Made by a program: the position numbers and the translations under genes. A stretch of 64,000 bases of DNA from Clostridiales bacterium (GTDB taxonomy: Bacteria > Bacillota > Clostridia > Lachnospirales > Lachnospiraceae): contig JAATFT010000005.1 of NCBI GenBank assembly GCA_015655075.1, positions 1 to 64,000 on the forward strand. The letters are read 5' to 3'. The notes beneath the pieces were generated by a model. The model saw only the letters and a list, made by a program, of their open reading frames with translations, made no database searches and had not been told where the DNA came from. Below are positions 12,341 through 55,087 of this stretch, one piece after another. Positions within the stretch are counted from its first letter, which is position 1. Each line of letters begins with the position of its first letter.

Positions 12341-12480
12341 CTAAATAACCGGGCAAATTTCTGAGAATGATTTTTCTTTAGACAGTGATGGACAAACGCA
12401 GACGTAGTGGGGCTACGCCGAAGCTTGACCGTTGCTGTATAAGGAAAATCAGGCCAGATAATTTGCATAGTTATTTACAG
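12341..12480. repeat. Long imperfect palindrome, family C
   Basis: Bases 12341-12480 form an imperfect palindrome with arms of about 66 bp. The left arm starts CTAAATAACCGGGCAAATT and the right arm, read inward on the other strand, starts CTGTAAATAACTATGCAAATT. Shared blocks inside include TGATTTT and ACAG. The exact centre is a hairpin CGTAG-TGGGG-CTACG (12403-12417). Only one copy is seen in the window. It fills most of the 344-base gap between the LacI and kinase genes. Confidence 0.75.
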
Positions 12481-12535
12481 GATGTTGTACGATTCTGTAT
12501 GGAAATTATCATGCTTCGCATGAACAAAATCGGCC

Positions 12536-12594
12536 ATGCAACGTCAAAATGCAAATACTTTTGACGTTGCATATAGTATCCTTATAGAGGATAC
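12536..12594 (-). terminator. Tandem hairpins after the lacI-type gene
   Basis: Two stems follow the repressor gene: a 7-bp stem 12576-12594 (GTATCCT/AGGATAC) and a 14-bp stem 12536-12572 (ATGCAACGTCAAAA with its exact complement). Neither is followed by a long T-run on the minus strand, so this may be an attenuating or RNA-stabilising structure. Confidence 0.5.
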
Positions 12595-12615
12595 CGTTCT
12601 TTTTTTCTATTACAG

Positions 12616-13620
12616 TTATATTTGCTTGATAGAATTTCCTTCCAGTATTTCCGTCTGAAGTTTGAGCACTCTATATTCCTGTTCTTCCTTATTATTATGA
12701 ATCCGTTCCAGAATTAATTCCGCCACATTCCTGGCAATTTCCTCCATGGGCTGAGTGACAATAGTCAGCTTCGGCTTACATGCCCTCGCAAATTCTTTGT
12801 TATCAAATCCGATTACGGAAAGCTCTTCTGGAATTCGGACACCCAGTTCATTTACTCCGATCACAGCTCCCATGGTCATTTCATAATTGGCAACAAACAC
12901 AGCCGTCATATCCTGATTGCGTTGCACCAAATTCTCCAGACATCTGACTCCGCTATTAATCGTATAGTCGCCGTGCTCCACAAAACGTTCCTCAGGTATG
13001 ATACCGTCCTCCATCAATGCCAGCTTGTATCCCAGCAGTCTTTCCTGGGCTGTAAAGATATCTTCCGGACCGCCTATCATTCCTATTTTGGTATGTCCGT
13101 GATTAATCAGCATCTGCACGGCATTTTTCGCCGCTGTCAGGTTATCCACCAATACACAATCACATTGAAGCGCATTAATTTTACGGTCGAGCAGAACAAT
13201 AGGCTTCTTGGTCTTTTGAAAACTCTCCAGGTGAGAACCATCTGTATTTACCGGCATATTAATGATTCCATCCACTCTCTTCCGGTACAGGAAATCAATT
13301 GCATCTTTTTCCAAGGTTTTATTGGTTCTGCAGTCACAGATTATGGTAGCATAACCATGGTTCCGCAAAATATCCTCCATACCAGTAATAATTTCAGCAC
13401 AAAAAATATTATTCAACTCGGGAATTACAACACCAACTGTCTTCGTTTTGTTTGTCTTCAACCCCCGTGCAACTTCATTGACTTCAAAATTTAGCTCTTC
13501 AATGGCCGCTTCTATCTTCTTTTTATTCTCTTCGCGTACTTTTCCGCCATTTATGTACGAGGAAATCGTCGCAAGTCCAAGCCCCGTATGCTTTGCGATA
13601 TCTTTAATCGTCGCTGCCAA
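12616..13620 (-). CDS. LacI-family transcriptional repressor
   Basis: A 334-residue LacI/GalR repressor: helix-turn-helix at residues 4-26 (TIKDIAKHTGLGLATIS), hinge ARGLKTNKTKTVGVVIP, then the periplasmic-binding-like effector domain to the C-terminus (SVIGFDNKEFARACKPKLT). The start is TTG at 13620 with GGGAG five bases upstream; this fits the family N-terminus exactly. It lies inside the catabolic cluster it probably controls. A perfect GAAACGTTTC palindrome sits between the aldolase promoter and its start codon, and a partial one precedes the kinase gene. The inducer is not known from sequence. Confidence 0.92.
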   Translation of the reverse strand: MAATIKDIAKHTGLGLATISSYINGGKVREENKKKIEAAIEELNFEVNEVARGLKTNKTKTVGVVIPELNNIFCAEIITGMEDILRNHGYATIICDCRTNKTLEKDAIDFLYRKRVDGIINMPVNTDGSHLESFQKTKKPIVLLDRKINALQCDCVLVDNLTAAKNAVQMLINHGHTKIGMIGGPEDIFTAQERLLGYKLALMEDGIIPEERFVEHGDYTINSGVRCLENLVQRNQDMTAVFVANYEMTMGAVIGVNELGVRIPEELSVIGFDNKEFARACKPKLTIVTQPMEEIARNVAELILERIHNNKEEQEYRVLKLQTEILEGNSIKQI

Positions 13621-13762
13621 TCATTCTCCCTACCTTTATCCTAATATAATGCTTCGTTACCCGGTGAACTGTCCCATGGCACATTTTCCCTTGCAGACAA
13701 GTAGAGGTGCTTTCATGAGCTATGCCATCACTTCGCGACTATTCCACGGGCATTTTTACCCT

Positions 13763-13924
13763 AGAGCGTGTTTGAAAAATCATCGCACCGTTCTGACCGC
13801 CCCACTTTGCGGTATACTGCGTCGCAATTTTGGGCGCGTAGTTGGTGCTACGCTCCCAAAATCGTTCCTTGCCTCCCACTAAGTGGAGCATCCAGCCCGG
13901 CACAAGCATTTTTCAAACACACTC
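13763..13924 (+). repeat. Long imperfect palindrome, family A, copy 1
   Basis: Full-length 162-bp copy between the aldolase and lacI genes. The ends are inverted (AGAGCGTGTTTGAAAAAT and ATTTTTCAAACACACTC). Each 80-bp arm carries CCACTTTGCGG or CCACTAAGTGG and a block with ATTTTGGG before the apex CGTAG-TTGGTG-CTACG (13837-13852), which lies within one base of the element midpoint. I define this orientation as plus. Confidence 0.9.
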
Positions 13925-13955
13925 CAGTGGACAAGCAAAAATGCTTTGCCAAATA

Positions 13956-14807
13956 TTATAGCACTTTATTGTCGCATCCGCAAATTAACATACGGTTTTT
14001 TACAAGATTTTTCACATTTTCCATGCCCGCTTTTCCAAAGCTCTTGGGATCAAAAGTATCCGGCTTCTCCTGGAGCAGTTTCTTAATTCCATCTGCATAT
14101 GCCACTCTTAGTTCCGTAGCAAAATTCACCTTGCAGATACCCCGTCTTATGCACTCCTTTACATCTTTATCACTTAATCCCGAAGCTCCGTGCAACACCA
14201 GCGGAACGGAGACCACATTACATATTTCCGATAATCTTTCTTTATCCAGTACGGGGGTTTTTAAATAAAAACCGTGTACCGTTCCGATTGCAACGGCAAG
14301 GGAACTGATTCCTGTTCTATCTACAAACTCCTTTGCTTCCATGGGGTCCGTATTGGTATCTGTTTCTGCCTCTAAATCATCTTCCTTACCGCCTACTTTG
14401 CCCAGTTCGGCTTCTACCGGAATGCCATTGGGTCTTGCAGCTTCCACTACTTTTTTAGTAACTGCTATATTATCCTCAAATGCTTCATGGGATCCGTCTA
14501 TCATTATGGAGGTATATCCTTCTTCGATTGCTCTGACTGCAAGTTCAAAACTGCTGCCATGATCCAGATGCAACGCAACCGGAATCGAAGTCTTCTTAGC
14601 CTCTGCCGTAACAATTGCCACATAAGTTTCGAGGGTGCCATATTTGATCGTTGAAGGAGTCGTCTGAAGCATAACCGGAGCACGAAGTTCTTCTGCCGCC
14701 GCAATAATAGCCTTTACCATTTCCATATTTTCAACGTTAAATGCTCCAATCGCATATCCGCTCTTCTGAGCGTCTAACAACATTTTTTCTGATGTTACCA
14801 ATGACAT
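13956..14807 (-). CDS. Class II ketose-bisphosphate aldolase (tagatose-1,6-bisphosphate aldolase GatY/KbaY type)
   Basis: A 283-residue zinc-dependent aldolase that cleaves a ketose-1,6-bisphosphate to dihydroxyacetone phosphate and glyceraldehyde-3-phosphate. Zinc ligands and active-site motifs are visible: LHLDHGSSFELA, IDGSH, EAELGKVGGKED, TVHGFY and LHGASGLS. The start is ATG 14807 (MSLVTSEKML), because AAGGAGG lies directly upstream; the frame is open for 27 more codons but those overlap the promoter. With a GatD-like dehydrogenase and a PfkB kinase in the same cluster, tagatose-1,6-bisphosphate is the likely substrate, though fructose-1,6-bisphosphate cannot be excluded. First gene of the cluster. 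Confidence 0.9.
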   Translation of the reverse strand: MSLVTSEKMLLDAQKSGYAIGAFNVENMEMVKAIIAAAEELRAPVMLQTTPSTIKYGTLETYVAIVTAEAKKTSIPVALHLDHGSSFELAVRAIEEGYTSIMIDGSHEAFEDNIAVTKKVVEAARPNGIPVEAELGKVGGKEDDLEAETDTNTDPMEAKEFVDRTGISSLAVAIGTVHGFYLKTPVLDKERLSEICNVVSVPLVLHGASGLSDKDVKECIRRGICKVNFATELRVAYADGIKKLLQEKPDTFDPKSFGKAGMENVKNLVKNRMLICGCDNKVL

Positions 14808-14829
14808 ATCTATTTCCTCCTTATAATCC

Positions 14830-14839
14830 GAAACGTTTC
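14830..14839. promoter_or_regulatory. LacI-type operator before the aldolase gene
   Basis: GAAACGTTTC is a perfect 10-bp palindrome with the central CG typical of LacI/GalR operators. It lies 15 bases downstream of the predicted -10 box and 22 bases before the start codon, an ideal repression position. Confidence 0.75.
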
Positions 14840-14853
14840 TACTTTGCATCTCT

Positions 14854-14882
14854 ATCCTATCTTCTTTTGATATAATTGTCAA
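14854..14882 (-). promoter_or_regulatory. Promoter of the aldolase gene
   Basis: On the minus strand TTGACA (14877-14882) and TAGGAT (14854-14859) are spaced by exactly 17 bases. The LacI-type operator lies just downstream. Confidence 0.7.
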
Positions 14883-15043
14883 TATCAAAAGATAAATTCG
14901 TATTAAGTTATAATCCTAATGTATTAAGTAAGAACAGTGTCGGATAATTTAACTATCAAAAGGCAATCCTTTCTTTTTTCTCAATCTTATAATTATGTGG
15001 ATAATCATTTGATACTGCCGTTTTTATGGGGAGACCGGACTTT

Positions 15044-16030
15044 TCAATTCCAATAGTATTTCATACTTTTTGCATCAAGTTCTATGATGAAATTTCTTTT
15101 TAACATAAGAAAATATTCCAGTTCCTTCATAATATGAAAAAGTATCGCACGGTTTTCAAACTCCTCACGGAACTTCGGAAGCGCTTCCTTACGAAAATAC
15201 TCCTTCAACTCCTCCAGTTCCGCTAAAAGTCCCTCCACATTATTTTTTTCATGGAAGGAGGCCGCAACACTCTCCATAAAATCCGCAATCGGCTGGGCCT
15301 GGACCGGCAATGCCACAATATGCTTCCCGTTCACCAGAATGCTTTTTAGCACCCCCACCTGAAGCTTTCTCATTTCCAGATAGGAAACGAGATATCTGGT
15401 ATCGCTTAAGAGCCTGTTTCCCGCTTCCTCATAGGCACTTTTTAACAAGCCTTCCAAAAGTGTGTCCAGAGGTATAAAATCTACCTTTTTCTCCTTCTCC
15501 TTCAGAATTTCTCCGATACTTCGAAGAGCTTTCTTCATCTCCTCCTCCAGAAACAGCTGTTCCCTGCGAATTCGATTCCTGTTGCGAGGCATAATAAGAT
15601 TAATTGCAATTCCAAGCCCCATTCCAATAAAAAGCAACGCGGTTTCGTTCAGGATCAGGGGCAAGCCCATCTGCTTTTCTATCAGAAAATGTGTTGCAAG
15701 CACCGCATTCATTGCAATAGCATCCCTTAGTCCAAGTATGACACACAGTGCTACAAATAAAGTAATAAATACTCCAAAAGCAACGGCACTGTAGCCAAGG
15801 CTGTTAAAAACAAGATACGCTGATACCGCTGCGAGTACAAAGGCTCCAATTCTTTTCAAAGCTATATCAATGGTTTCTTTTTTCGTATTCTGGATGGTCA
15901 GCAAGGTGATAATACCTGCCGACGGGCTGTAAGCCAAACCGATCCCTTCCGCCAGCAAAATGGCAATTGCCGAACCGATGCCGGTTTTCAATAAAAATAA
16001 CAAATTAACCGTTTTCAGCTTATCTTTCAC
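15044..16030 (-). CDS. ArAE-type aromatic acid exporter family membrane protein
   Basis: A 328-residue protein with about five to six N-terminal membrane segments (residues 10-145) followed by a charged, coiled-coil-prone cytoplasmic half. The membrane half matches the ArAE_1 (DUF939/FUSC-like) family, with TGIGSAIAILLAEGIGLAYSP followed within ten residues by TLLTIQNTKKETI. The C-terminal half fits the ArAE_1_C domain seen in Bacillus YqjA-like proteins. It is proposed to export organic or aromatic acids, but the substrate is unknown. ATG 16030 follows a GAAGGAGAT-like site. It stands alone between the aldolase promoter and a repeat region. Confidence 0.8.
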   Translation of the reverse strand: MKDKLKTVNLLFLLKTGIGSAIAILLAEGIGLAYSPSAGIITLLTIQNTKKETIDIALKRIGAFVLAAVSAYLVFNSLGYSAVAFGVFITLFVALCVILGLRDAIAMNAVLATHFLIEKQMGLPLILNETALLFIGMGLGIAINLIMPRNRNRIRREQLFLEEEMKKALRSIGEILKEKEKKVDFIPLDTLLEGLLKSAYEEAGNRLLSDTRYLVSYLEMRKLQVGVLKSILVNGKHIVALPVQAQPIADFMESVAASFHEKNNVEGLLAELEELKEYFRKEALPKFREEFENRAILFHIMKELEYFLMLKRNFIIELDAKSMKYYWN

Positions 16031-16124
16031 TTTTCATGTATCTCCTTCCTGGGTCCGTATGAATCCTTGTATGAATAAGTATGCCAAAAAACCGTTGATT
16101 TTTCAAATATTATTATTTATTAAG

Positions 16125-16255
16125 AAAGATTTGCAAAGCAAACTCTGCGCTGATGCTTGTCGCATCGCGGCATAATACCCTGCAAGCGTCATGCGCATCC
16201 CGCCTGAAAGGCTTTTTATTGAATAGGAAATTCACGGAATTTTTTATTCAATAAA
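16125..16255. repeat. Structured repeat D, copy 1 (first half)
   Basis: This 131-bp stretch holds three hairpins: TTTGC-AAA-GCAAA; an outer stem GCGCTGATGCTTG with CAAGCGTCATGCGC enclosing GTCGC-ATC-GCGGC; and a long AT-rich palindrome built on TTTTTATTGAATA/TATTCAATAAAAA. The same order recurs at 22690-22830 with different stem sequences but preserved pairing. It fills the gap between the exporter and DtxR genes. Confidence 0.65.
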
Positions 16256-16300
16256 AAACCGGATGAAAAAACAGCAAATTCCTATTTTCTCATCCGGTTT
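16256..16300 (-). terminator. Rho-independent terminator of the DtxR-type gene
   Basis: An 11-bp perfect stem (AAACCGGATGA, 16256-16266, with TCATCCGGTTT, 16290-16300) runs into six T residues on the minus strand, 48 bases after the stop codon. Confidence 0.8.
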
Positions 16301-16348
16301 AAATCAGATATTTTGTTCAGGCGCTTATCGGAATTTATGCTCCCAAGC

Positions 16349-16735
16349 TTAATGAACGGCGTCTTCCGGAATCTTAAGAGACTTAAGAAACCTCTTTATT
16401 CCCTGATACGTATCTTCACTGATAACATGTTCTATTCTGCATGCATCTTTTTCTGCCGCCTCATGGGATACGCCTGCCGTTTCCATCAAAAATACGGTTA
16501 ATTGCTGATGCCTGTCATATACGCTTTCCGCTTTCTCTTTTCCCTCTTCCGTCAGTTCTATATAGCCGCTGCCATCTACTACAATTAAGCCGTCCTCTTT
16601 TAAAATTCCTACCGCCCGGCTTACACTAGGTTTGCTATATTCCAGTTCTCTGGCTATATCAATGGATCTGACTTCTCCAATACGTCTCTTTAATATAAGG
16701 ATTGTTTCTAAATAGTTTTCACCTGATTCGTACAT
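16349..16735 (-). CDS. DtxR/MntR-family metal-dependent regulator
   Basis: A 128-residue winged helix regulator. The DNA-binding part (1-70) carries SIDIAREL and KPSVSRAVGILKEDGLI; the dimerisation and metal-binding part has the family block KDACRIEHVISEDTYQGIKRFL. There is no SH3-like C-terminal domain, as in MntR. Members sense manganese or iron and repress uptake genes. ATG 16735 follows GGAGG. Two abutting 17-bp inverted repeats directly upstream are probably its own operator. Halves of a structured repeat flank the gene on both sides. Confidence 0.9.
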   Translation of the reverse strand: MYESGENYLETILILKRRIGEVRSIDIARELEYSKPSVSRAVGILKEDGLIVVDGSGYIELTEEGKEKAESVYDRHQQLTVFLMETAGVSHEAAEKDACRIEHVISEDTYQGIKRFLKSLKIPEDAVH

Positions 16736-16750
16736 AAAGTTTCCTCCATA

Positions 16751-16784
16751 TTGATATATTTTATCAATTGATATAATTTATCAT
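16751..16784. promoter_or_regulatory. Tandem operator of the DtxR-type gene
   Basis: TTGATATATTTTATCAA (16751-16767) and TTGATATAATTTATCAT (16768-16784) are two directly abutting near-identical 17-mers, each an inverted repeat. They lie immediately upstream of the ribosome binding site, so binding would block transcription: autoregulation is likely. Confidence 0.6.
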
Positions 16785-16825
16785 ATCGCATTTTAAGAAA
16801 ACTTTCCAGTAAAAATTTTAATTTG

Positions 16826-16906
16826 TGACGAATACAAGTCAGAATATATTATAGGAACAAAAATCATGTTCCTATAATCGGATGCACGGCGGTAAAAAAC
16901 ACCGCC
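16826..16906. repeat. Structured repeat D/E, second half, copy 1
   Basis: A perfect 12-bp stem (ATTATAGGAACA, 16848-16859, with TGTTCCTATAAT, 16867-16878) is followed by GGATGCACGGCGG. About 38 bases here recur at 22831-22868 with only a few changes, directly after the other repeat parts. The segment GAATACAAGT before it recurs at 18859. A small GGCGGT/ACCGCC hairpin closes the block. Confidence 0.6.
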
Positions 16907-16908
16907 TT

Positions 16909-16940
16909 TTATCAGAAGATAAAAAGACATCTTCTGATAA
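16909..16940 (-). terminator. Hairpin after galactonate dehydratase
   Basis: A 12-bp perfect stem (TTATCAGAAGAT, 16909-16920, with its complement 16929-16940) lies 37 bases after the stop codon of the dehydratase gene. The following GGCGGT hairpin has a T-rich loop; the pair probably ends transcription. Confidence 0.5.
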
Positions 16941-16976
16941 GTTATATTATAAAATTGCAGAAATACATTTGATGGC

Positions 16977-18125
16977 TTACCACTCTGCAACCGTACCATC
17001 CGGATTCCTCCACACAGGATTTTTCCAATCAAATGGTACAAAAGACATTTCCCGTACTTTATCCTCATTAATTTCAATTCCAAGTCCCGGACTAACAGGC
17101 AATTCTACCACACCGTCCTTATATTTAAATACGGACTTTTCCTGCAAATAATCCAAAACATCACTGCCCTGGTTATAATGGATTCCCAGGCTCTGTTCCT
17201 GTATTACTGCATTTGCACAGGTAGCATCCACCTGCAGACATGCGGACAATGCAATCGGCCCAAGGGGACAATGTGGTGCCAGCGCGACATCATAGGCCTC
17301 CGCCATGGAAGCAATCTTCTTACACTCTGTGATTCCTCCCGCATGGGACAGGTCCGGCTGTATGATATCCACATATCCGGCATTTAACAGGTTCTTATAA
17401 TCCCATCTCGAAAACATCCTTTCCCCTGTAGCAATAGGGATATTGGAGTGTTTCGTAATTTCTTTTAAAGCTTCTATATTCTCTGTTAATACCGGTTCTT
17501 CAATAAACATCAGGTGGAAGACTTCCAGCTCTTTGGCCAGAATTTTAGCCATTGGTTTATGCACCCTTCCATGGAAATCAACGCCTATTCCAAAGTATTG
17601 CCCGGCAGCATCCCGAATTGCCCCCACCCGCTGCAAAACCAGATCTATTTTTTTATAACTGTCGATATAATGCATTTCTTCCGTTGCATTCATTTTAATT
17701 GCTGAAAATCCCTGTTTTTTCTTTTCAACTGCCTGAACTGCCACATCCTTTGGACGGTCTCCGCCAATCCAGGAATATACCTGGATATTATCCCGGCATT
17801 TTCCTCCCATCAGATTATATATGGGAGTATGATAAAATTTCCCCTTAATATCCCATAATGCCTGGTCTATACCGGAAATGGCACTCATCATAACGGGACC
17901 TCCCCGATAAAATCCTCCCCGGTATAAAACCTGCCAGATATCCTCTATTTTCTGCGGATCACGGCCGATCAGATAATACTTAAGCTCCTCAACACAAGCC
18001 TTTACGGTATCCGCCCTGCCTTCTATAACGGGTTCTCCCCAGCCGGTTAACCCGTCGTCCGTTGTCATTTTTAAAAATAACCAACGGGGCGGAACTTTAA
18101 ACAATTCAATATTATTTATCTTCAT
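16977..18125 (-). CDS. dgoD: D-galactonate dehydratase (enolase superfamily)
   Basis: A 382-residue acid sugar dehydratase that converts D-galactonate to 2-keto-3-deoxygalactonate. Sequence parallels to E. coli DgoD are extensive: FYRGGPVMMSAISGIDQALW, DFHGRVHKPMAK, LFIEEPV-like FIEEPVLTEN, GERMFSRWD, QPDLSHAGGITECKKIA and APHCPLGPIALSACL. Metal ligands fall at the Asp of DFHGR and the Glu residues of FIEEP and GERMF; the catalytic histidines are in DFHGR and APHCPLGP. ATG 18125 (MKINNIELF) is used because AGAGG precedes it; an upstream start would add nine residues unlike the family. It follows an alpha-L-fucosidase relic. The rest of the galactonate pathway is not in the window. Confidence 0.92.
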   Translation of the reverse strand: MKINNIELFKVPPRWLFLKMTTDDGLTGWGEPVIEGRADTVKACVEELKYYLIGRDPQKIEDIWQVLYRGGFYRGGPVMMSAISGIDQALWDIKGKFYHTPIYNLMGGKCRDNIQVYSWIGGDRPKDVAVQAVEKKKQGFSAIKMNATEEMHYIDSYKKIDLVLQRVGAIRDAAGQYFGIGVDFHGRVHKPMAKILAKELEVFHLMFIEEPVLTENIEALKEITKHSNIPIATGERMFSRWDYKNLLNAGYVDIIQPDLSHAGGITECKKIASMAEAYDVALAPHCPLGPIALSACLQVDATCANAVIQEQSLGIHYNQGSDVLDYLQEKSVFKYKDGVVELPVSPGLGIEINEDKVREMSFVPFDWKNPVWRNPDGTVAEW

Positions 18126-18182
18126 AATATTCCATCCTCTCTTCCGGTCCATTTATATTCGTTTCCAGCCATTTCCCGTGAG

Positions 18183-18590
18183 TTAATCCCTCTTCATCAT
18201 AAGGCCTTGGACTTCCGGTTTTTCCTCAGGCCCAACCACCGCCACCGTATCCAGGGAATCTGCAACCTCTGAAGGAAACATCACCCGAAACCGGTATTCA
18301 TCCCAAGCAATTTCATAGGATTGGAAAAACAAAAGTTCTTCCCCGGTCTTTAACAGGTATACCCTCCTTGCCTTAGACTTTAACCCTACCACACAGATTT
18401 CATATGGAAAGGCGGATAACTCCTTCGGCATATTATACGGTGTATCAAACCATATCAGACCTATTTTCCCATATTTGGTTAATAATTCTTTTACCTGGGA
18501 TTTTACTATAAATGAAATATATTCCCCGCAGACAGTGTTCCGGACAATTATATAAAAAGCCTGAAAGGTCCCTTTAATGCTACGGATTAC
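18183..18590 (-). pseudogene. Alpha-L-fucosidase (GH29) relic with a large internal deletion
   Basis: An open frame of 161 codons exists, but its first 25 codons are read from repeat A. From about 18545 it encodes a GH29 signature, SQVKELLTKYGKIGLIWFDT, then PYNMPKELS. After that it jumps to a typical fucosidase C-terminal domain (KARRVYLLKTGEELLFFQSY, then DEYRFRVMFP and DTVAVVG). Roughly 300 residues between the two parts and the N-terminal catalytic half are missing. It was presumably part of the same sugar-acid operon as dgoD, 57 bases downstream. No catalytic nucleophile region remains, so the product would be inactive. Confidence 0.8.
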
Positions 18591-18693
18591 AATGATTTTC
18601 AAACACGCTCTAGAGTGTGTTTGAAAAATGCTTGTGCCGGGCTGGACGCTCCAATTTGAGGGAGGCAAGGAGCAATTTTGGGTGCGTAGTGGT
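18591..18693 (-). repeat. Family A palindrome, copy 2 (half-element with a facing end)
   Basis: The 82 bases 18612-18693 are one arm of repeat A from its terminus (AGAGTGTGTTTGAAAAATG) to the apex (GCGTAGTGGT), where it stops abruptly. Directly in front, 18591-18611 is the terminal 20 bases of another copy in the opposite direction, so two ends meet at CTCTAGAG. It forms the 5' border of the fucosidase relic. Confidence 0.8.
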
Positions 18694-18710
18694 AATCTTA
18701 ATAATTTATA

Positions 18711-18770
18711 AAAGGGCGGCTGTTAAATTCCAGGTTACACAACCTGATCGACTGCAGCCGCCCTTTTTTT
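18711..18770. terminator. Bidirectional-looking terminator
   Basis: A 9-bp perfect stem GGGCGGCTG/CAGCCGCCC (18714-18722 and 18755-18763) with an inner GGTT/AACC hairpin in the loop. A run of seven T follows on the plus strand and TTTTATAAATT on the minus strand. It lies 110 bases after the ABC transporter operon. Confidence 0.7.
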
Positions 18771-18880
18771 ATTGCCGTCTGTTTTAAATTTCTTTTCCTA
18801 CACTTGCGGTATGAAAAGTGCACGGGGTGCCCTCAAGCGACAGGTTATTCTTTATGATGAATACAAGTTAAAATATATTA

Positions 18881-20632
18881 TTAAACGCTCCAGCCCATAC
18901 TCTCCTGCTGAATTCGGTAAAGCTTTTCATAAAGCCCCTTCTTAGCTATGAGTGTATCATGGGTTCCCTCTTCAACAAGCCTTCCTTGATTTAAAACAAT
19001 AATTTTATCAGCTCCGGCCACAGTCCGCAGCCTGTGGGCTATTACAATAACAGTTTTTCCTTTAATGAGCCTGGAGATTGCCTGCTGGATCAGCACCTCG
19101 TTTTCCGGGTCCAAGGAAGCCGTAGCCTCATCCAACAAAACAATAGGAGCATTTTTAAGCAGTGCCCGTGCAATGGAAATCCGCTGCCTTTCCCCGCCGG
19201 ACAGGGTACTTCCGTTCTCTCCCAGCATAGTTTCATATCCTTCCCGCAAATTGCCTGCAAATTCATCACAGCAGGCCGCCTCTGCGGCTTTAAGGACCTG
19301 TTCCCTCGTTGCCTCCATATTGCCGATCCGTATATTATTATAAATTGTGTCATGAAACAATACCACATCCTGAAATACAAAGGACATATAGCTCATTAAA
19401 TGTTCCGGATCCAGGGTCTTAATATCGGTTCCGCCGATTTTTATAGTTCCGCCGTCCACATCCCAGAATCTTGCAATCAGCTTTGATACGGTGCTCTTCC
19501 CGCAGCCTGACGGGCCTACCAAAGCAGTAATGCCTTCCGCCGGGATTGAAACCGAGAAATCCTTTATTACGGATTCCTCCGGAGTATTTACTTTATTATA
19601 GCTAAAGGACACCTTGTCAAATTCTATATTAAAATTCTTAATTTCCTTTTCCGTACTTCCCTCCATTATGGCAGTGGATATCAAAGTCCTCATCCGCTTT
19701 GTGGATAACCGGAGGTACATAAGCTCCGGAAGCAGGGTCAGCTCAACAAGAACGGGACCGTAAATCCGGACAACGATAAGAAAAAACATCAACAGGGGAA
19801 TTAATTCAATCTGTCCGCCTGTTAACAGATAAGTTCCTGCAAAAACAGTAAGCCCCACGCCGGCCTGAACAATAATCTGCGCTCCGGTTACAAAAATACC
19901 CGTTACAAATTCCATCTGGATTGCTATTTTTTTCATAAAGCGCAGAGCATCGTCAAGAGCTGCAAATTTATCTCCCTCTAAGCCGCAGGCTTTAATAACT
20001 TTAATTCCTTCAAAATATTCCTGGACCTGGTCAGAAGCCTTAAGTTTTGCCTGGATGTGGCTCTCGCTTAATCTGTTTTGAACTTTTCTGCTTCCAAGGA
20101 TTACAAAAAATGCGACCGGTACCGTTATGAAAACCGTAAGGGCCAGTCTCCATTCAAAAAAGGAAAGCATAATGCATACGATTACTATGGATATCCCATT
20201 GGCTAAAAGCTGCGGAATCACACGACTCAATACCTGTTCCGTGGTTGCACAGTCTCCCATCATATTTGTTGTAAGTTCCGTTAAGTCTTTCGAATTGAAA
20301 AAGCTCATGGGCAGCTTCCTGATATGTTCCGCGACACGGATTCTTGTGGCTTCCGATTCGTTATAGGAGGTAACGTATGTCTTTTTATAATCATTTTTAT
20401 TGGCGAGGAATACCAGGACAGCCGCACCTATCCCGGCTAAAAAATAACCCCACATTTTAATCCAGGATATTTCTTCCCCCATAAACGGTTTTAGCAATTC
20501 CATAAATATTCCGATTGTAACACCAAAGGGCAGCATCAAAGATAAATTCGTAACGGTGCACGCCAGAATTGCTTTCTTTAAATCCCTATATCCCTTCTCC
20601 GTCAGCAACAGCAGTTCTTTTAAATTACCCAT
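18881..20632 (-). CDS. ABC transporter, fused membrane and ATPase domains (pair 1, second subunit)
   Basis: A 583-residue half-transporter: six membrane helices in residues 1-310, then an ATPase with Walker A GPSGCGKST, signature LSGGERQRIS and Walker B IVLLDEATASLD. It surely pairs with the upstream subunit. ATG 20632 (MGNLKELLLL) is chosen because GGCGGAG precedes it, giving an eight-base overlap with the upstream gene. Pairs of this type with an AraC regulator resemble YbtP/YbtQ siderophore importers but equally multidrug or lipid exporters, so substrate and direction are open. The stop codon is followed directly by an AATATATT repeat also found at 16840. Confidence 0.9.
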   Translation of the reverse strand: MGNLKELLLLTEKGYRDLKKAILACTVTNLSLMLPFGVTIGIFMELLKPFMGEEISWIKMWGYFLAGIGAAVLVFLANKNDYKKTYVTSYNESEATRIRVAEHIRKLPMSFFNSKDLTELTTNMMGDCATTEQVLSRVIPQLLANGISIVIVCIMLSFFEWRLALTVFITVPVAFFVILGSRKVQNRLSESHIQAKLKASDQVQEYFEGIKVIKACGLEGDKFAALDDALRFMKKIAIQMEFVTGIFVTGAQIIVQAGVGLTVFAGTYLLTGGQIELIPLLMFFLIVVRIYGPVLVELTLLPELMYLRLSTKRMRTLISTAIMEGSTEKEIKNFNIEFDKVSFSYNKVNTPEESVIKDFSVSIPAEGITALVGPSGCGKSTVSKLIARFWDVDGGTIKIGGTDIKTLDPEHLMSYMSFVFQDVVLFHDTIYNNIRIGNMEATREQVLKAAEAACCDEFAGNLREGYETMLGENGSTLSGGERQRISIARALLKNAPIVLLDEATASLDPENEVLIQQAISRLIKGKTVIVIAHRLRTVAGADKIIVLNQGRLVEEGTHDTLIAKKGLYEKLYRIQQESMGWSV

Positions 20633-39593: not shown

Positions 39594-39745
39594 GAGTACT
39601 CCCGGAAACTCTTTGTATGCAGATCTATGAGATGATTTTTTGTCAGATAAGCACAAATTTATGAGGCGTACGTTGATTAAATTTGTGTGCAGCCGGCGAA
39701 AAATCAGCCGCAAAGATGCGTACAGGGGAGTTTCCGTGAATGCTC
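39594..39745. repeat. Long imperfect palindrome, family G
   Basis: The 152-bp element has arms starting GAGTACTCCCGGAAACTC on the left and ending GAGTTTCCGTGAATGCTC on the right, with internal paired blocks TGATTTTT and CACAAATTTA. The symmetry centre (39669.5) falls exactly on CGTACG. It lies between an extended -10 box (TGCTATAAT, ending 39588) and the response regulator start, so it would be transcribed as the 5' leader. The stretch 39294-39593 holds nothing else I can identify. Confidence 0.7.
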
Positions 39746-42671: not shown

Positions 42672-42673
42672 TC

Positions 42674-42840
42674 TAGCGTGTATCTGAAAAATGCCTGTGC
42701 CGGGCTGTATGCTGCTCCGCTTTGTGGGAGGCAAGGAGCGATTTTAGGCGCGTAGTGGTGCTACGCTCCCAAAATTGCGACGCAGTTTACCGCAAAGCGG
42801 GGCGTTCAAAATGGTGCGATAATTTTTCAAACACGCTCTA
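42674..42840 (-). repeat. Long imperfect palindrome, family A, copy 3
   Basis: Full-length 167-bp copy in reverse orientation between convergent genes. Ends TAGCGTGTATCTGAAAAATG and ATTTTTCAAACACGCTCTA; apex CGTAG-TGGTG-CTACG at the centre. It fills the 340-base gap together with the dehydrogenase tail. Confidence 0.9.
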
Positions 42841-47180: not shown

Positions 47181-47235
47181 CACCCCCAAAAAAATTTTAG
47201 TTAGTTTTACTAATGCCTACTTTGATTAAAAAAAT

Positions 47236-47250: not shown

Positions 47251-47339
47251 TTTTATTACTATGTTATCAATAATTCCGTACAAGTCAATAAAGATTACTT
47301 CTAATGATATATTTTATCACCAATACTAAATAACAAAAT

Positions 47340-47472
47340 GGCTGCTGCAAAATTCTTAAACTTTATCGTATGGAAAACCCATTTTCCTTGCCTCCCACAA
47401 ATTGGAGCGTCCAGCCCGGCACAAGCATTTTTCAAACACGCTCAAGATAAAAATTAAGATTTTACAACAGCC
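47340..47472. repeat. Repeat F interrupted by a half copy of repeat A (copy 4)
   Basis: The outer arms GGCTGCTGCAAAATTCTTAA (47340-47359) and, inverted, GGCTGTTGTAAAATCTTAAT at the other end (47472 backwards) define element F. Inside, 47381-47443 is the right arm of repeat A in plus orientation (CCTTGCCTCCCACAAATTGG through CAAACACGCTC). So A sequence lies nested in F. This fills the space between the TetR and VOC genes. Confidence 0.65.
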
Positions 47473-47488
47473 CTTGTCCAATCTATAT

Positions 47489-48109
47489 TCAGTTAGCCGC
47501 ATATTCAAATTCCAATTCCTTAATTCCGCTACCTATAAATAAAGTCAATGTAGTATCATCACACAGTTTCTCAATGATTGGTACAAATTCTTTCCTGGTT
47601 CCAAAGGATATGTTCTTTATTCTTCTCACACCGTTAGGATGTATAAAGTTCCTGGGTTTAGGATCAATGTTAAAATAGGTCATCAAAAACGGAAGCTGCA
47701 ATTCATCAGGGAAAAGGCAGGTAAACCGTAATTTTCTCCCCTTTGTGTCATTCCTTCGCGAGGGCATCAGGAAATAACCCTGTTTGTATTTTTCCAAGAT
47801 ACCTATTTCTTCCTTTAAATCCTTTTTATAATCCTCAAGCGCGACACCGCACGGACCCGCCTTATGGTTATCCCAAAAGTCCAGGCGGTCGACCAGCTTG
47901 CCCTTCCCAAAAGTACGTAAAATTTTTTTCATGAATTTCGGCATCCCGCTTGAAGCAAGCAGCTCCAAATACGGGCCTTCAGAAAAATAAATAATTGCGT
48001 TATAAGGATTTTTCTTTGTTCCAAATTCCACCTCAAATCCCTTGTTTTTAAATTCTTCTACAGCCTGATACAGGTCATCTACCTTATATATTATATGGCT
48101 GACTTTCAT
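47489..48109 (-). CDS. VOC/glyoxalase-like family protein
   Basis: A 206-residue protein of the glyoxalase_3-like VOC group: starts KVSHIIYKVDDLYQAVEEF, with NAIIYFSEGPYLELLAS as the first metal-ligand strand. The family includes ring-opening dioxygenases, glyoxalases and resistance proteins; no substrate can be assigned. ATG 48109 has GGAGGAG upstream. It is 100 bases after the neighbouring membrane-protein gene and may be cotranscribed. Confidence 0.75.
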   Translation of the reverse strand: MKVSHIIYKVDDLYQAVEEFKNKGFEVEFGTKKNPYNAIIYFSEGPYLELLASSGMPKFMKKILRTFGKGKLVDRLDFWDNHKAGPCGVALEDYKKDLKEEIGILEKYKQGYFLMPSRRNDTKGRKLRFTCLFPDELQLPFLMTYFNIDPKPRNFIHPNGVRRIKNISFGTRKEFVPIIEKLCDDTTLTLFIGSGIKELEFEYAAN

Positions 48110-48210
48110 TTTTCCGACTCCTCCTATCCGTTTCGCCTCTTATCAATAAGAAGAGCTCCCGTTCCAGGATACCTTGCCCTTCTCCGGTCTCTCCCAACAC
48201 CAGGGATGTC

Positions 48211-48744
48211 CTACCAAATAAAATATTTTAGAATACCATAGCAGATTCCCGCATATACCAACGCAAAAATTGATATATATACCAGTCCATGTAAAAATCC
48301 CTTTAAATGAAACCCGTAATCCTTCCATCCCTTGCAGTCCTCCGTTCCGGGGAAATGAAAAAGTATCCATTTTGGCGTAAAGAAGCAGACAACCAACCAG
48401 TCTACCAATAATAAATCTATTACATTCCACATCTGACAAAGAATCCATTCATGCCCCAACAGACTGAAAAATGAAATCGGTGCCGACGAAAAAGTACTGA
48501 CACCGCTCCATATGGCAAATGCAGATAAAATAACATACGAAATTACAGTTACCAGCATTGCCTGCCGGGAAGTTTTCCTATCCATATCCGGCAATTTAGC
48601 CTTTTCTTTAATATCTTCCGGGAAGTCATGTTCCATTGCTTTTGGATATTTAAAGAGCAATATACCTATAAATATAATCCAAAGTAATGACCAGATCACT
48701 CCATATATTACCGCCATTCCTATATCCATCCCGATTTTCTCCAT
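48211..48744 (-). CDS. Membrane protein of unknown function
   Basis: A 177-residue protein with four to five hydrophobic segments (about residues 10-30, 60-80, 95-120, 150-172). The loop between the first two, with KYPKAMEHDFPEDIKEKAK, is charged. No family is recognised with certainty. ATG 48744 has GGAG ten bases before it; ATG 48729 is an alternative with a similar site. Its upstream region contains repeat A copy 5. Confidence 0.7.
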   Translation of the reverse strand: MEKIGMDIGMAVIYGVIWSLLWIIFIGILLFKYPKAMEHDFPEDIKEKAKLPDMDRKTSRQAMLVTVISYVILSAFAIWSGVSTFSSAPISFFSLLGHEWILCQMWNVIDLLLVDWLVVCFFTPKWILFHFPGTEDCKGWKDYGFHLKGFLHGLVYISIFALVYAGICYGILKYFIW

Positions 48745-48852
48745 TTCATTTTTTCTCCATGCAGATACTTATGAAAAAAATTCCGTACTTTATGTTAAAC
48801 TGATTATTTATTATATCTTTCTGCTCCCATCGTCTGCCCCGGATTTTAGATC

Positions 48853-49013
48853 TAGAGCGTGTTTGAAAAATTCTTGTGCCGGGGTCTGTTCCACTTTGCG
48901 GGAGGTAAGGAGCGATTCCGTGAGCGTAGCGGGACTACGTTTCCAAAATTGGGACGCCAAATACCTCAAAGTGGGACAGTCAGAACAGTCAATGATTTTT
49001 CAAACACGCTCTA
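48853..49013 (-). repeat. Long imperfect palindrome, family A, copy 5
   Basis: A 161-bp full-length copy in reverse orientation with ends TAGAGCGTGTTTGAAAAAT and ATTTTTCAAACACGCTCTA, perfectly complementary over 19 bases. It is the most diverged inside, yet the apex stem is intact: CGTAG-CGGGA-CTACG. It lies between enolase and the membrane-protein gene. Confidence 0.9.
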
Positions 49014-49085
49014 AAAGGCCTATCTAAAAATAGGGGCATATGCAGAAATATATACATTGCCCCATTGCCCCTATATTCAGAATTT

Positions 49086-50685
<1,600 letters not shown>

Positions 50686-52536
50686 TTATTCCGTTGTAAA
50701 AGGTGCCGCCGGCAGTCCTTCCCTATTATAAAGGTTGGCTCCGTCAGGATAATTCTCCCAGGCATACCTTACATGACAGGGTTTTCCTATGCCGTCACAT
50801 CTGACAACCACCGTGTTCCCTTCGATTCTTGCCGTTCCGGGAACAAATACGCCGTCTTCACCGCAGATCCTAAACTGCTTTAATTCCCTTCCCTTCACCA
50901 TCAGCCCGCTTCCCGTATGCATAAAAGTAAGGCGGATTGTATTGCCTTCCTTTTTCATTTTCTTATAGAAAGGGCCGCTGTAAACGACCTCCTCACCATA
51001 TGCCAGTTTTCTGGCCGCCAGGGCCAGACGTATTCCCAAATCCTTTTTATTGAAAGGATGTAAGTCGTTATATTCCCCTATATCAATTGTCACAATCATT
51101 GCCGTGGACGGTAATTCCAGTGCTTTCCTCTGTTCCTCCCGAAGCTTTGCCCAAAGATATCCGCCGCCCTTTTTCCTGCCAAATCCGAAGCCTGCCAGCT
51201 GTACATAAAGAAAAGGCAGATCTCCCTGTCCAAGCAAAACACGCCAGTCCGTTATCATTGCTTTAAATAAAGAATAATACTGATAAGGATTATCCCCGTT
51301 GGATTCCCCCTGATAGAAAGCAATTCCCTTCATTCCCGTCCGGCTTAAGGGCGCAATCATACCGTTGTACAATCCGGAGGGCTCATATTGGAAAAAAGTA
51401 ACCGGCTGAAGGGCTCTTACCTTGGCTCCGATACGAAAATACCACAAGCCTTTCAAATCGATTTTTTTTCCGCCAAGCTTTAAAAAATATGGTTTATCGG
51501 GTATAAATCCGCCAATATTGGCAGTACTTATAAGCCTGACCGTAATACTGTTCTTTCCTTCGTGCAATACACCTTTGGGTATGACATATCTGCGAGGCGG
51601 ATATTGGTAACCGGTGCTTCCTATCAGAACTCCGTTTACATAGGTATCATCCCCGTCCACTAAGGTGCCAAGTGCCAGCCTGGCTTCCCCGTAAGCCTGA
51701 CAGGTAGGAAGCTCTATCTCCTTTCTAAGCCATATGCTTCCCCGTATATCCGCAAGCTCCGTATTATACCAGTATCCGGGCACAACGATCTGGGTCCAGT
51801 CCGAAATATCCGTCTCTTCTTCATACCATTTTCCGGCAAGTCCTTCATCCCCAAGATTTAAGCCGTTATACCATGCCTGTGTCCTCTGGGCCTCCTCTTT
51901 TATCGTATTCTGGACATAGGAGTCCGATTTATTCCGGTTCAGCTTTTCCGTAAACCGGTCAAAGCCTTTTAAAGAAGGCTCGCTGATCCAAGCTTCCACA
52001 GGAGTGCCGCCAACCGCTGTCAGAATCAGGCCGATGGGTATCTTATAAGCCCTATACAAATCCCTTGCAAAAAAATACCCCGCGGCACTGAAATTCATGA
52101 CATTTTCTTTGGTCGCACTTTCCCAGCAGCCGGTCCCGTACTCTTTCCTGGGAGCGTGGAAATCATATATCTGGGGGGCATGAAACAGCCGAATATTTTT
52201 TTCGTCAGCTCCGGTAAGCTCCTTTTCATATTGTTCAAAAACCCTTGCCACCGGAAGCTGCATATTGGACTGGCCTCCAAGAAGCCAGACATCCCCAATC
52301 AGAATATTATGTATAAATAATGACTTTCCATCGGATATTTCCAGTTCATATGGGCCGCCGGCTTCCATAGGCGGCAGCTTTACTTCCCATTTACCGGCTC
52401 CATCTGCTTTTGTTTCATAAATTTTTCCGTAAAAGGATAATTTAATGCTGCTCTCCTTTTCTGCACTTCCCCAAAATACTATTTCCTTTCCCCGCTGCAG
52501 GACCATGCCGTCGCTAAAAATTGATGATAATTTCAT
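50686..52536 (-). CDS. Sialate O-acetylesterase-like carbohydrate esterase
   Basis: A 616-residue SASA-type SGNH esterase. The nucleophile block is GGQSNMQLPVARV; GIAFYQGESNGDNPYQYY supplies the oxyanion region and DIGEYNDLHPFNKKDLG the catalytic Asp-x-x-His. A beta-sandwich insert lies between residues 220 and 350 (WLRKEIELP, YVNGVLIGSTG). The family removes acetyl groups from sialic acid or from plant xylan/pectin. No signal peptide is visible, so it is probably cytoplasmic and acts on imported glycans. ATG 52536 follows AAGGGA. Monocistronic. Confidence 0.87.
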   Translation of the reverse strand: MKLSSIFSDGMVLQRGKEIVFWGSAEKESSIKLSFYGKIYETKADGAGKWEVKLPPMEAGGPYELEISDGKSLFIHNILIGDVWLLGGQSNMQLPVARVFEQYEKELTGADEKNIRLFHAPQIYDFHAPRKEYGTGCWESATKENVMNFSAAGYFFARDLYRAYKIPIGLILTAVGGTPVEAWISEPSLKGFDRFTEKLNRNKSDSYVQNTIKEEAQRTQAWYNGLNLGDEGLAGKWYEEETDISDWTQIVVPGYWYNTELADIRGSIWLRKEIELPTCQAYGEARLALGTLVDGDDTYVNGVLIGSTGYQYPPRRYVIPKGVLHEGKNSITVRLISTANIGGFIPDKPYFLKLGGKKIDLKGLWYFRIGAKVRALQPVTFFQYEPSGLYNGMIAPLSRTGMKGIAFYQGESNGDNPYQYYSLFKAMITDWRVLLGQGDLPFLYVQLAGFGFGRKKGGGYLWAKLREEQRKALELPSTAMIVTIDIGEYNDLHPFNKKDLGIRLALAARKLAYGEEVVYSGPFYKKMKKEGNTIRLTFMHTGSGLMVKGRELKQFRICGEDGVFVPGTARIEGNTVVVRCDGIGKPCHVRYAWENYPDGANLYNREGLPAAPFTTE

Positions 52537-52590
52537 TATTGTCCCTTCTGTACCAATGCCTCCCGGCTTAAAATTAATTTTGCAATCTGT

Positions 52591-52745
52591 TAGGGCGTGT
52601 CTGAAAAATGCTTATGCCGGGCTGGACGCTCCACTTTGTGGGAGGCAAGGAGCAATTTTGGGTGCGTAGTGGTGCTACGCTCCCAAAATCACGACGCGGT
52701 ATACCGCAAAGTGGGGCGTTCAGAACGGTGCAATGAAACACACTC
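52591..52745 (-). repeat. Long imperfect palindrome, family A, copy 6
   Basis: A 155-bp copy in reverse orientation; left end TAGGGCGTGTCTGAAAAATG, apex CGTAG-TGGTG-CTACG. The right end lacks about seven bases of the terminal repeat (GTGCAATGAAACACACTC). Confidence 0.88.
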
Positions 52746-53064
52746 CAGTAGTCCAAAAAGTTTGTAGTCGATAAAACAAAGTGGTATTATAAGTTTGAGG
52801 TGATAAAAATACGTCCAAGAAAATACCATGTTACCAGGATCAAGTTAAAATCACTTTATCCGGTTATCAAATAAACTAACTTTTAGTAAGCTTATAATTT
52901 TTTATCTGCGCTTTTATTATATTATGAACATAAAACGTGTTCATGATCTTTTGCGGCCTTCGGAATCTGCAGCCAAGCTTGCAATTCCTCTCTGCTTTTA
53001 TTATATTATAATAGAAGGTCAATAGCTTATCAGTTATTGCTATTATATTTTCACAAATTGCTTA
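52746..53064. other. Intergenic region with a direct repeat
   Basis: No gene is seen. A roughly 36-bp imperfect direct repeat occurs at 52888-52925 and 52975-53009; both copies start AAGCTT and end GCTTTTATTATATTAT. A GAACA/TGTTC palindrome lies between them. Confidence 0.45.
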
Positions 53065-54363
53065 TTATTCCGTCGACTGCAATGTGGAAGCTATCACATT
53101 CTTCATAATTTCTTTGGTCATCATTCCGGGAACATATCCATACACATTACCCTTCTTATCTATCATAAAGGTGGTAGGAAAAGCTGCAATATAATAATTA
53201 TTAAGTATTTCCCCCGTTTCATCAAACAGAATGGGAAAAGTAATCCCATTGGTATCTATGAAATCTACTAGTTCCTCCTTTTCCACATCCTGATTATAGG
53301 GATGATTTTTATTTTTGGGATTGGCAATACCTAAAAACACCACCTCATCCTCATTACAATTATACTCCTGATAAAGCTCCTCTATATACGGCATTTCTTC
53401 CTTGCAGGGCGGACACCAGGACGCCCAGAAATTTAAGAATACCACCTGCCCCTTATAATCGGAAAGAGTATGTTCGTTCCCATATTGATCTGTCAGGGTA
53501 AAATCAAAGGCCGGAATTACAGGTTTTTCTCCCTGTTTTCTATCTCTGCTGCCCGCTGTTACATCGTCTTTTGTTGTACTGTTTTTATTTTCGGCCGCCG
53601 TATCCTGAATGCTTTTTTGCTGTTTTGAGCCTATGGTATTTAAGTAACCGGAGATGCCGTTCATCCATCCGGTAAAGGTCATAATACCCATAACAATAAG
53701 TATTACCCCTCCTGCTTTTATGGTATATTTCAACAGCATCCGTTTTGCTTTTAAAAATCCCAGCACCTGTGCCGTAAATAGACCAAGCAGTAAGAACGGA
53801 AGGACAAAACCCATTGTATAAAGGACTACCAGCATGTTGCCGGCCAGGGAAGTTTTTGCCCCGGAGGCCATAATCAATACAGATGACAGGACGGGTCCGA
53901 TACAGGGAGTCCAGGCAAAACTAAAAGTGAAACCCAATACAAGGGCAATAAGAGGATTTATTTCCTTATCAGTAAGATTCAGATTTATTTTTCTTTCCTT
54001 TTGCAGAAATGCAAAATCTAAAATACCAAGCTGAAATAATCCTAAAACAATAATCAGTATCCCGCCGATTCTGGTAAATAGCATTTTATTACCGGTAAAA
54101 AATTTGCCCAGTGCCGTAAATGACATACCTAACAGAAAAAAGGCAGACGATATTCCCAAAACAAAAAATAATGTGTGGAAAAATACCTTCCTTCTTTCAT
54201 AGATAACCGTACCGTCTTCTCCCGTCTTTTTCACATTTCCTGCCAGAAATCCCATATATACCGGTATCAACGGAATAATACAGGGTGAAAAAAAAGATAT
54301 TACACCTTCCGAAAATACGAGTATAAAACTGATATTTTCTGTGTTCACAAGCCCTCCGATCAT
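53065..54363 (-). CDS. CcdA-type membrane protein fused to a TlpA/ResA thioredoxin domain
   Basis: A 432-residue fusion. Residues 1-245 are a six-helix CcdA/DsbD-like reductant carrier with its two redox cysteines in FFSPCIIPLIP and WTPCIGPVL. After a polar linker (250-280) a thioredoxin-like TlpA domain has the active site WCPPC (C317, C320) and AAFPTTFMID with the cis-proline. Electrons from cytoplasmic thioredoxin would cross the membrane within one polypeptide to reduce an extracellular partner. ATG 54363 follows GGAGG and overlaps the stop of a small upstream frame. Confidence 0.9.
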   Translation of the reverse strand: MIGGLVNTENISFILVFSEGVISFFSPCIIPLIPVYMGFLAGNVKKTGEDGTVIYERRKVFFHTLFFVLGISSAFFLLGMSFTALGKFFTGNKMLFTRIGGILIIVLGLFQLGILDFAFLQKERKINLNLTDKEINPLIALVLGFTFSFAWTPCIGPVLSSVLIMASGAKTSLAGNMLVVLYTMGFVLPFLLLGLFTAQVLGFLKAKRMLLKYTIKAGGVILIVMGIMTFTGWMNGISGYLNTIGSKQQKSIQDTAAENKNSTTKDDVTAGSRDRKQGEKPVIPAFDFTLTDQYGNEHTLSDYKGQVVFLNFWASWCPPCKEEMPYIEELYQEYNCNEDEVVFLGIANPKNKNHPYNQDVEKEELVDFIDTNGITFPILFDETGEILNNYYIAAFPTTFMIDKKGNVYGYVPGMMTKEIMKNVIASTLQSTE

Positions 54364-54455
54364 AACTTTCCTCCATTAACAATTCCATACATAAATTGAA
54401 CAAATAACATCTCAACTGGTATTAAGGATACAATTTCTAAAGGACACTTTTTCAT
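54360..54455 (-). CDS. Possible 31-residue coupled peptide upstream of the CcdA-TlpA gene
   Basis: ATG 54453-54455 follows GGGAG seven bases upstream and opens MKKCPLEIVSLIPVEMLF, ending at a TGA that overlaps the ATG of the next gene (ATGA-type coupling). No family is recognised. It could be a leader that couples translation or a real microprotein. From 54456 to 54763 no gene or clear signal is seen. Confidence 0.4.
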   Translation of the reverse strand: MKKCPLEIVSLIPVEMLFVQFMYGIVNGGKL

Positions 54456-54763
54456 AAAAAATCTCCCGTTATGAAATTAATATGATAAACTGCCCGAATT
54501 TATTAACAGATTCTTCCTGCCCGCCGTTATAATAAAAATTGAAAATCTCCGTATCTAATTATCTAATTTGGCCGGCAAGCCCATAAGCAAAGACCAATAA
54601 CATGGTTCCATTTTAAAGTAGTTATTTTTTTCTTTGTGCTTTTTCCTTTCATTTGTTCAATTCAAATACATTAACCATGGGGAAATATAATCTCAGCCAA
54701 CAGCTCAATGACTACGATTGATTAAGTAATATACAAAGACATTAAAAATGGGGCGGTTGCTCA

Positions 54764-54928
54764 CTAGTGCACTGGCAAGTTGATATCTTGTCTAATGGCT
54801 TGCCTGAATTTCCATCTGCTTCGTTGTCGTCAATCGACGTAGCCACCGCTACGCCTCATTTCTCCGCCTCGCAGAATAAAAATCCATTCTACGCCATTAG
54901 TCCAAGTATCAACTTGTCAGCACACTAG
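54764..54928. repeat. Long imperfect palindrome, family B, copy 1
   Basis: A 165-bp element with arms of 80 bp. Left end CTAGTGCACTGGCAAGTTGA; the right end, read inward on the other strand, is CTAGTGTGCTGACAAGTTGA. The block CTAATGGC recurs in both arms. The centre is CGTAG-CCACCG-CTACG (54838-54853), within half a base of the midpoint. Its right end shares TAG with the left end of repeat A copy 7. Confidence 0.85.
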
Positions 54929-55087
54929 AACGTGTTTGAAAAATGCTTGTGCCGGGCTGGATGCTCCATTTTGTGGGAGGCAAGGAGCGATTTTGGGTGC
55001 GTAGTGGTGCTACGCTCCCAAAATTGCGACATAGAATACCCCAAAGTGGGGCGGTCAGAACGGTGTGATGATTTTTCAAGCACGCTC
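54926..55087 (-). repeat. Long imperfect palindrome, family A, copy 7
   Basis: Full-length 162-bp reverse copy directly abutting repeat B. Ends TAGAACGTGTTTGAAAAATG and ATTTTTCAAGCACGCTC; apex CGTAG-TGGTG-CTACG (55000-55014) at the midpoint. A TAATGGAG/CTCCACTA hairpin after the dehydrogenase gene lies just beside it. Confidence 0.9.

Follow-up and report, generated by a model that had tools for sequence, protein, structure and literature searches.

The stretch of DNA considered here (the window: positions 1 to 64,000 of contig JAATFT010000005.1, assembly GCA_015655075.1, 64,000 nucleotides in all) comes from a Clostridiales bacterium of the family Lachnospiraceae and carries a set of palindromic elements, which are the subject of this report. 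An initial annotation of this DNA sorted the palindromes into families by their arms and stated that families A, B and C share one apex hairpin, CGTAG-loop-CTACG. This is the case: the pattern CGTAGN{3,8}CTACG has eight exact sites in the window compared to 0.02 expected from shuffled sequences. Six of the sites belong to family A (13837, 42751, 48925, 52665, 55000, and 56465), one to family B (54838) and one to family C (12403).

The family C element occupies positions 12326-12493 of the plus strand, with its apex at 12403-12417. Its previously proposed limits, 12341-12480, had to be corrected: the left end is the CTAG at 12326, while the right end, at about 12493, has decayed to CGAT. Family A elements are located at 42673-42840 (plus strand, apex 42751-42765), 48851-49013 (plus strand, apex 48925-48939) and 13761-13927 (minus strand). 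In the last of these the loop is inverted relative to the arms, which looks like a flipped apex. A further copy at 52591-52736 (plus strand, apex 52665-52679) is truncated at its right end; 18610-18689 (plus strand) is the left half of a truncated copy and 47385-47446 (minus strand) is a left-half fragment.

Neighbouring elements can abut via one common tetranucleotide. The 165-bp family B element at 54764-54928 (minus strand, apex 54838-54853) shares a CTAG with the family A element at 54925-55087 (plus strand), the pair covering 54764-55087. An array of three elements at 56293-56554 begins with a half of a family D element (56293-56357, minus strand), continues with a 39-bp miniature B (56354-56392, plus strand), which has both ends but has lost the centre, and closes with a family A element (56389-56554, minus strand, apex 56465-56479). 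Such deleted forms of 39-51 bp, with ends kept and centre gone, occur elsewhere too: mini-hairpins with both B or D ends were also seen at L131:1851-1901 and L132:2115-2155.

A genome-wide search for the apex, as proposed in the initial annotation, found 185 sites with loops of 3-8 nt in the 4.5-Mb genome, compared to 26 for a reversed-pattern control. With loops of 4-7 nt there are 180 sites in this genome and 0-19 in each of 40 relatives (0-13 in congeners), so that the apex seems to have multiplied in this species.

Families, ends and candidate transposases

The fetched loci gave 149 non-redundant palindromes, which fall into six arm families (A 81, B 37, D 17, C 7, F 4, and E 1) plus two chimeras. 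As the loci were fetched mainly for the apex, a match to family A or CTAGTACARC ends, copies without the apex are under-counted. Intact copies start and stop at CTAG or a near variant and are mostly 163-168 bp long (about 165 bp), too short for an internal transposase gene. In the 12 half-arm consensuses the distance from CTAG to CGTAG is 79-81 nt despite the differing arms, giving totals of 165-167; the apex thus lies at the element midpoint, as had been claimed.

The insertion target of intact copies is YTAR, mostly CTAG. Both ends could be read in 122 copies, with the combinations CTAG/CTAG (62), CTAG/CTAA (16), CCAG/CTAG (7), TTAG/CTAG (6), CTAG/CTGG (6), CTGG/CTAG (4), and others (21). 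A 4-bp duplication would predict both TTAG/TTAG and CTAA/CTAA; the former is absent and the latter was found once. Therefore, the outermost base of the ends looks target-derived and TA looks like the duplicated part. Duplication of TA is the rule for IS630/Tc1-mariner elements, and ISY100 of the IS630 family inserts at TA in vitro with TA duplicated, according to the available part of PMC2170065; a 1991 title cited there has IS630 preferring the TA in CTAG.

Ends of insertion sequences (IS) could be determined at 53 of the 80 loci in one set and at 21 loci from DDE_3 searches. The best inverted pair of YTAR type or TA near the gene was taken, with a bonus for CTAG in the first set, and loci without readable ends were excluded from the matching. 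Of 44 element termini (12 consensus ends of this genome and 32 ends of 16 elements elsewhere), 34 have a match among 76 IS630 ends (p<0.01, as judged from 1000 shuffles). Both consensus ends of families B, C, D, and F (8/8) match at p<=0.003, and so does one of the two ends of family E at the general threshold, its best match being a B-like IS end (L351). The reference transposase gene (locus L216, genome G017) belongs to IS630 by NCBIfam NF033545, and its element is bounded by CTAG. Relatives of this IS have the ends CTAGTAYA...TAAATAACTGGAC, as in families C and F; B-like ends are present in the IS630 loci L339, L340, and L351, and D-like ends in L335. Families B, C, D, and F can be assigned to the IS630 type by this resemblance of their ends, and E probably as well.

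The A-type end YTAGRGYGTGTYTGAAAA adjoins IS5_3 (NF033580) genes in two viral-contig loci, with one end in L360 and the other in L365. Family A ends perhaps resemble those of IS5 type, although this is less sure than the IS630 link. An IS1182-type partner (PF13751) was also considered and rejected: this genome has three fragments of it, and nearby CTAG sites lack matching ends. In an A subfamily (alignment A2; L051, L053, and L058) compensatory changes were seen in the terminal repeat, where two T-A/A-T pairs are replaced by C-G (columns 12/161 and 19/154).

A Pfam DDE_3 search located IS630-type genes in six of 41 genomes. DDE_3 co-occurs with the centre of the elements: of the 48 genomes that have the centre, 10 contain DDE_3, compared to 18 of the 251 that lack the centre (Fisher p=0.006); this table was counted by hand, after the first look at the 41 genomes, from two lists assumed to cover the same 299 genomes. 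The open frames of 49 loci, 809 in all, were clustered to look for a common neighbour gene; among the 25 largest clusters, which were the ones checked, three are present in 3-4 genomes, and none of these is a transposase by eye.

A common centre with differing ends

A covariance model, R1, was built from 24 centres of families B, D, and E. In the window it matches, each time on the strand of the element, family C (12370-12449, plus strand, E=1.2e-4) and, weakly, two family A copies, 52591-52736 (E=0.013) and 56389-56554 (E=0.086). The B element scores 95.7 bits, being a member of the model's own building set. Three other A copies are matched no better than by chance (chance matches have E=0.69 upward): 42673-42840 at E=1.3, 13761-13927 at E=7.1 (touched at 13829-13861, minus strand), and 54925-55087 at E=7.4 (apex part only); the copy at 48851-49013 is not among the matches. 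Outside the window, C copies are matched at E=2.4e-6 to 3e-4 and F copies at E=0.028 to 0.11.

The families had been described as unrelated apart from the apex. This cannot be maintained, because the homology of the centre extends beyond the apex. The proposal that one process lies behind all of them is supported in that there is a single folded centre, conserved, and a single target preference; its premise of otherwise unrelated elements falls. The centres of the families are diverged copies of one another, whereas their arms are not.

Comparison of 22 elements with one another gives 231 pairs. The identity of the centres reaches 80% or more in 56 of these pairs, and in 36 of the 56 that of the termini does not exceed 50%; the pairs are not independent. 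In both chimeras, F1C2 and D2B2, the halves of different families join at the apex. These pairs and the two chimeras support an exchange of ends around a constant centre, and exchangeable arms imply that one centre may be carried by several transposases. The best reading is that the B/D/E, C, F, and A palindromes form one modular superfamily with a constant centre and swappable ends. In an element from another genus (L169:1457-1622) the apex pairs CGTAG with CTCCG, one old and one new stem half, as if it were between apex types.

R1 matches (E<=0.001) were found in at least 48 of 299 genomes of the same taxonomic family, a lower bound since stricter filters were used. Y-shaped relatives of about 280 nt with TA at both ends were found at ten loci in six genomes (L171, L178-L185, and L197); the four searched with R1 contain two centres each. 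These elements (L171:1-278 among them) have a closing stem with ends that are mostly TA-GCGTCRGTGTAC and two inverted hairpins with CGTAC/GTACG apexes matching R1, and the outer bases next to the terminal TA vary.

Rfam 15 gave no match at gathering score in the window, and in five further loci a search with a limit of E=1 yielded a single match, whose score lies far under the gathering score of its family. The centre is thus also a widespread repeat, one that annotation pipelines may overlook. No plasmid or phage copies of family A were found at E<=1e-3, nor was the exact 22-base B/D core in viral contigs. Among the open-licence papers listed in literature searches, no title or abstract beginning mentions repeats of this kind for this taxonomic family.

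Conserved fold and strand asymmetry

When 19 elements, taken from 17 genomes, are aligned, two-sided changes are present in 45 of 58 pairs. The proportion of paired cells is 92.7%, compared to 71.6% in column shuffles and 29.5-46.4% in slid structures. Family A alone has two-sided changes in 13 of 58 pairs. In alignment A3 the row L126 is too short and misaligned at its right end; it was retained.

The apex stem itself covaries. It had been described as invariant, which is exact for the six window copies of family A, but in other genera it is replaced by CGATG/CATCG (L153 and L165) or CGGAG/CTCCG (L168). The GTAG in which a REP-like motif had been suspected lies inside this stem and is swapped with compensation.

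The strand with the loop YGGNG folds better than its complement in all 127 copies of 150-175 bp from this genome when RNA parameters are used, and in 126 of 127 with DNA parameters. In other genera, ends and orientation could be found in 16 of 26 loci (L149-L174), and only these were folded: the elements are 160-166 nt long, and the YGGNG strand is the more stable one in 16 of 16. Their arms vary, although some pairs are alike. In the six consensuses, mismatches on this strand are G.T (34) and G.A (42) rather than A.C (16), with p=0.015 for G.T versus A.C.

Singleton mutations at paired G-C positions of families A, B, and D show no such bias (17 C>T, 21 G>A). Shared variants at such positions give C>T to G>A ratios of 125:64 in A, 17:13 in B, and 16:12 in D. 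Where the flanking genes are co-directional, the elements favour neither orientation: 22 run with the genes and 28 run opposite to them (the flank was sufficient for 110 of the 149 elements). Since singletons are unbiased and gene orientation is neutral, the asymmetry does not resemble post-insertion mutation and seems to be a property of the propagating lineage, not of inserted copies. The selected molecule would be RNA or single-stranded DNA.

One more palindrome, family G (39594-39745, plus strand), is centred on CGTACG and may be a distant member (R1 E=2.1). It resembles the centre around CGTACG, lies immediately upstream of a response-regulator gene, and its plus strand folds better (-63.3 vs -45.1 kcal/mol). 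Apart from the palindromes, the stretch 2741-2995 is a partial second copy, apparently a remnant, of segments of the gene at 193-819 for a sugar ABC-transporter ATPase (77-88% identical), and two further repeat pairs are 83-90% identical (16159-16199/22736-22776 and 16844-16896/22820-22872).

Propagation of the elements and comparison with known systems

Calculation shows the copy numbers, the ends and how they resemble those of IS, a homologous centre, the covariation, and the strand asymmetry. We think it likely that the palindromes are modular miniature inverted-repeat transposable elements (MITEs) in which a folded strand is selected during propagation. They would be non-autonomous and constitute one modular superfamily in this bacterial family. 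A DDE transposase acting in trans would use the first 25-30 nt of the outer arms as its terminal inverted repeats. In B, C, D, F, and probably E this enzyme would be of the IS630 (Tc1/mariner) type, in A perhaps of the IS5 type; both types would act at TA within YTAR, mostly CTAG. Inside the arms, a shared central hairpin of about 70 nt would consist of purine-rich internal loops with tandem G.A mismatches, as read from the consensus, followed by the apex stem-loop, the apex being where arms of different families meet in the two chimeras. Selection during propagation would hold the YGGNG strand as a single hairpin of near-constant length. We infer that matching transposases move the elements with duplication of TA, and that propagation requires the folding of one strand, be it RNA or single-stranded DNA.

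A number of observations weigh against this reading. The 127 folded copies belong to few families and are not independent, one of them reverses its strand preference under DNA parameters, and one folded Y-shaped relative has hardly any preference (-155.5 vs -153.0). PF13358 (IS630) has no match in this genome, which is 78.6% complete and in which IS5 was not searched for. Element and IS ends compared within one genome match poorly (7-10 of 26 positions in G151, 12-15 of 26 in G291), and ten of the 44 termini have no IS630 match at p<0.01: both of A, one of E, both of L158, L159, and L168, and one of L169. The A-type pattern matched 14 viral loci, of which two have an IS5 gene beside it, with one end each; a complete IS5 element with both A-type ends was not seen at the matched viral loci, and none was searched for in this genome. 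The simple target rule does not account for CCAG and CTGG ends, of which the 5' side has 11 and 9, respectively, and the 3' side 10 CTGG. Finally, no empty site was recovered in congeners: at the one site aligned, the genes could be aligned but the intergenic DNA could not, so the duplication of TA is deduced from the ends.

The elements could instead be ordinary IS-derived MITEs, with a centre common by descent alone, diverged arms and an asymmetry inherited as a historical accident. The homology of the centre across families and the Y-shaped relative agree with this, and there are bacterial precedents for small MITEs whose transcripts form long stem-loops (available part of PMC2229807). However, the arms have changed widely and are still paired, the length has stayed at 160-166 nt in the elements of other genera, and the mismatches on the same strand are G.T and G.A rather than A.C. 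We regard this explanation as distinctly less probable, though it deserves to be kept in mind.

A stronger version of the favoured reading makes the folded strand an obligate intermediate: the element would be copied via RNA or a displaced single strand, and the IS630 or IS5 transposases would only insert the copy. If so, the centre would be a replication or packaging signal that has enlisted different transposases through changes of its ends; the element would be the bacterial equivalent of a short interspersed nuclear element, coupled to DNA transposases. We put this forward as speculation with rather low odds.

Quasi-palindrome correction, i.e., template switching at replication forks, could keep arms complementary without selection and also produce swaps and mini-hairpins. 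The 39-51 bp forms and the chimeras joined at the apex do resemble replication events on palindromes, and the process may still be the arm-swapping mechanism. As the sole cause it is improbable: it should give perfect Watson-Crick palindromes without strand preference, whereas here internal mismatches are conserved, one strand folds better, and strand-asymmetric wobble pairs are conserved across genera.

The initial annotation drew a parallel with REP elements moved by RAYT enzymes. A RAYT/Y1 or other HUH enzyme reading the apex as single-stranded DNA would suit the strand-specific folding and the GTAG in the apex, but PF01797 has no match in this incomplete genome (other HUH families were not searched for), Y1 does not track the apex among the 40 relatives (G002 has 17 Y1 matches and two apexes), GTAG is substituted with compensation elsewhere (GATG/CATC, GGAG/CTCC), and the ends match DDE transposons; this leaves the idea very little credit. 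Retention as RNA parts useful to the host, such as terminators or mRNA stabilisers, is just as improbable. It fits the intergenic location in the window and the very stable predicted folds but hardly the neutral gene orientation, the unbiased singletons, or the very unequal apex number among congeners (180 here vs 0-13).

Bacterial MITEs are commonly regarded as leftovers of one insertion sequence. Here, one conserved centre is combined with ends that resemble the ends of several transposase groups, and the fold has been kept while most arm bases changed. Two questions thereby become testable: what makes full-length hairpins so frequent among bacterial MITEs, and by what route a non-autonomous element comes to use another transposase. 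Conservation of fold over sequence is also known from integron attC sites.

The closest known system is RUP of Streptococcus pneumoniae, related to IS630-Spn1: in the available part of PMC2229807 it is a small intergenic repeat with IS630-like ends and a TA target, and its transposase is suggested to work in trans. In that review RUP measures 107 bp and goes with a single IS, whereas the elements described here have one centre with ends like several IS630 subgroups and perhaps IS5, and a fold in which covariation extends over several genera. ERIC/IRU (127 bp) and Correia/NEMIS (107 and 155 bp) have terminal TA, target duplication and stable long stem-loop transcripts; the same part of PMC2229807 describes no constant centre with exchangeable ends for them, and strand-specific covariation is evidence added by this analysis. 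CIR of Caulobacter and Brucella are two-armed folded repeats, as are the Y-shaped relatives, but have a GANTC motif at the terminal loop (PMC2229807, available part) while the Y-shaped elements carry two copies of the centre. REP/REPIN-RAYT systems are similar in having many hairpins per genome and GTAG; the elements described here are longer (about 165 bp), have a replaceable GTAG within the apex stem and IS-like ends, and Y1 was not found in the genome as far as it is complete. Overall, the elements are akin to IS-mobilised MITEs such as RUP and unusual in their exchangeable ends and strand-specific, covarying fold.

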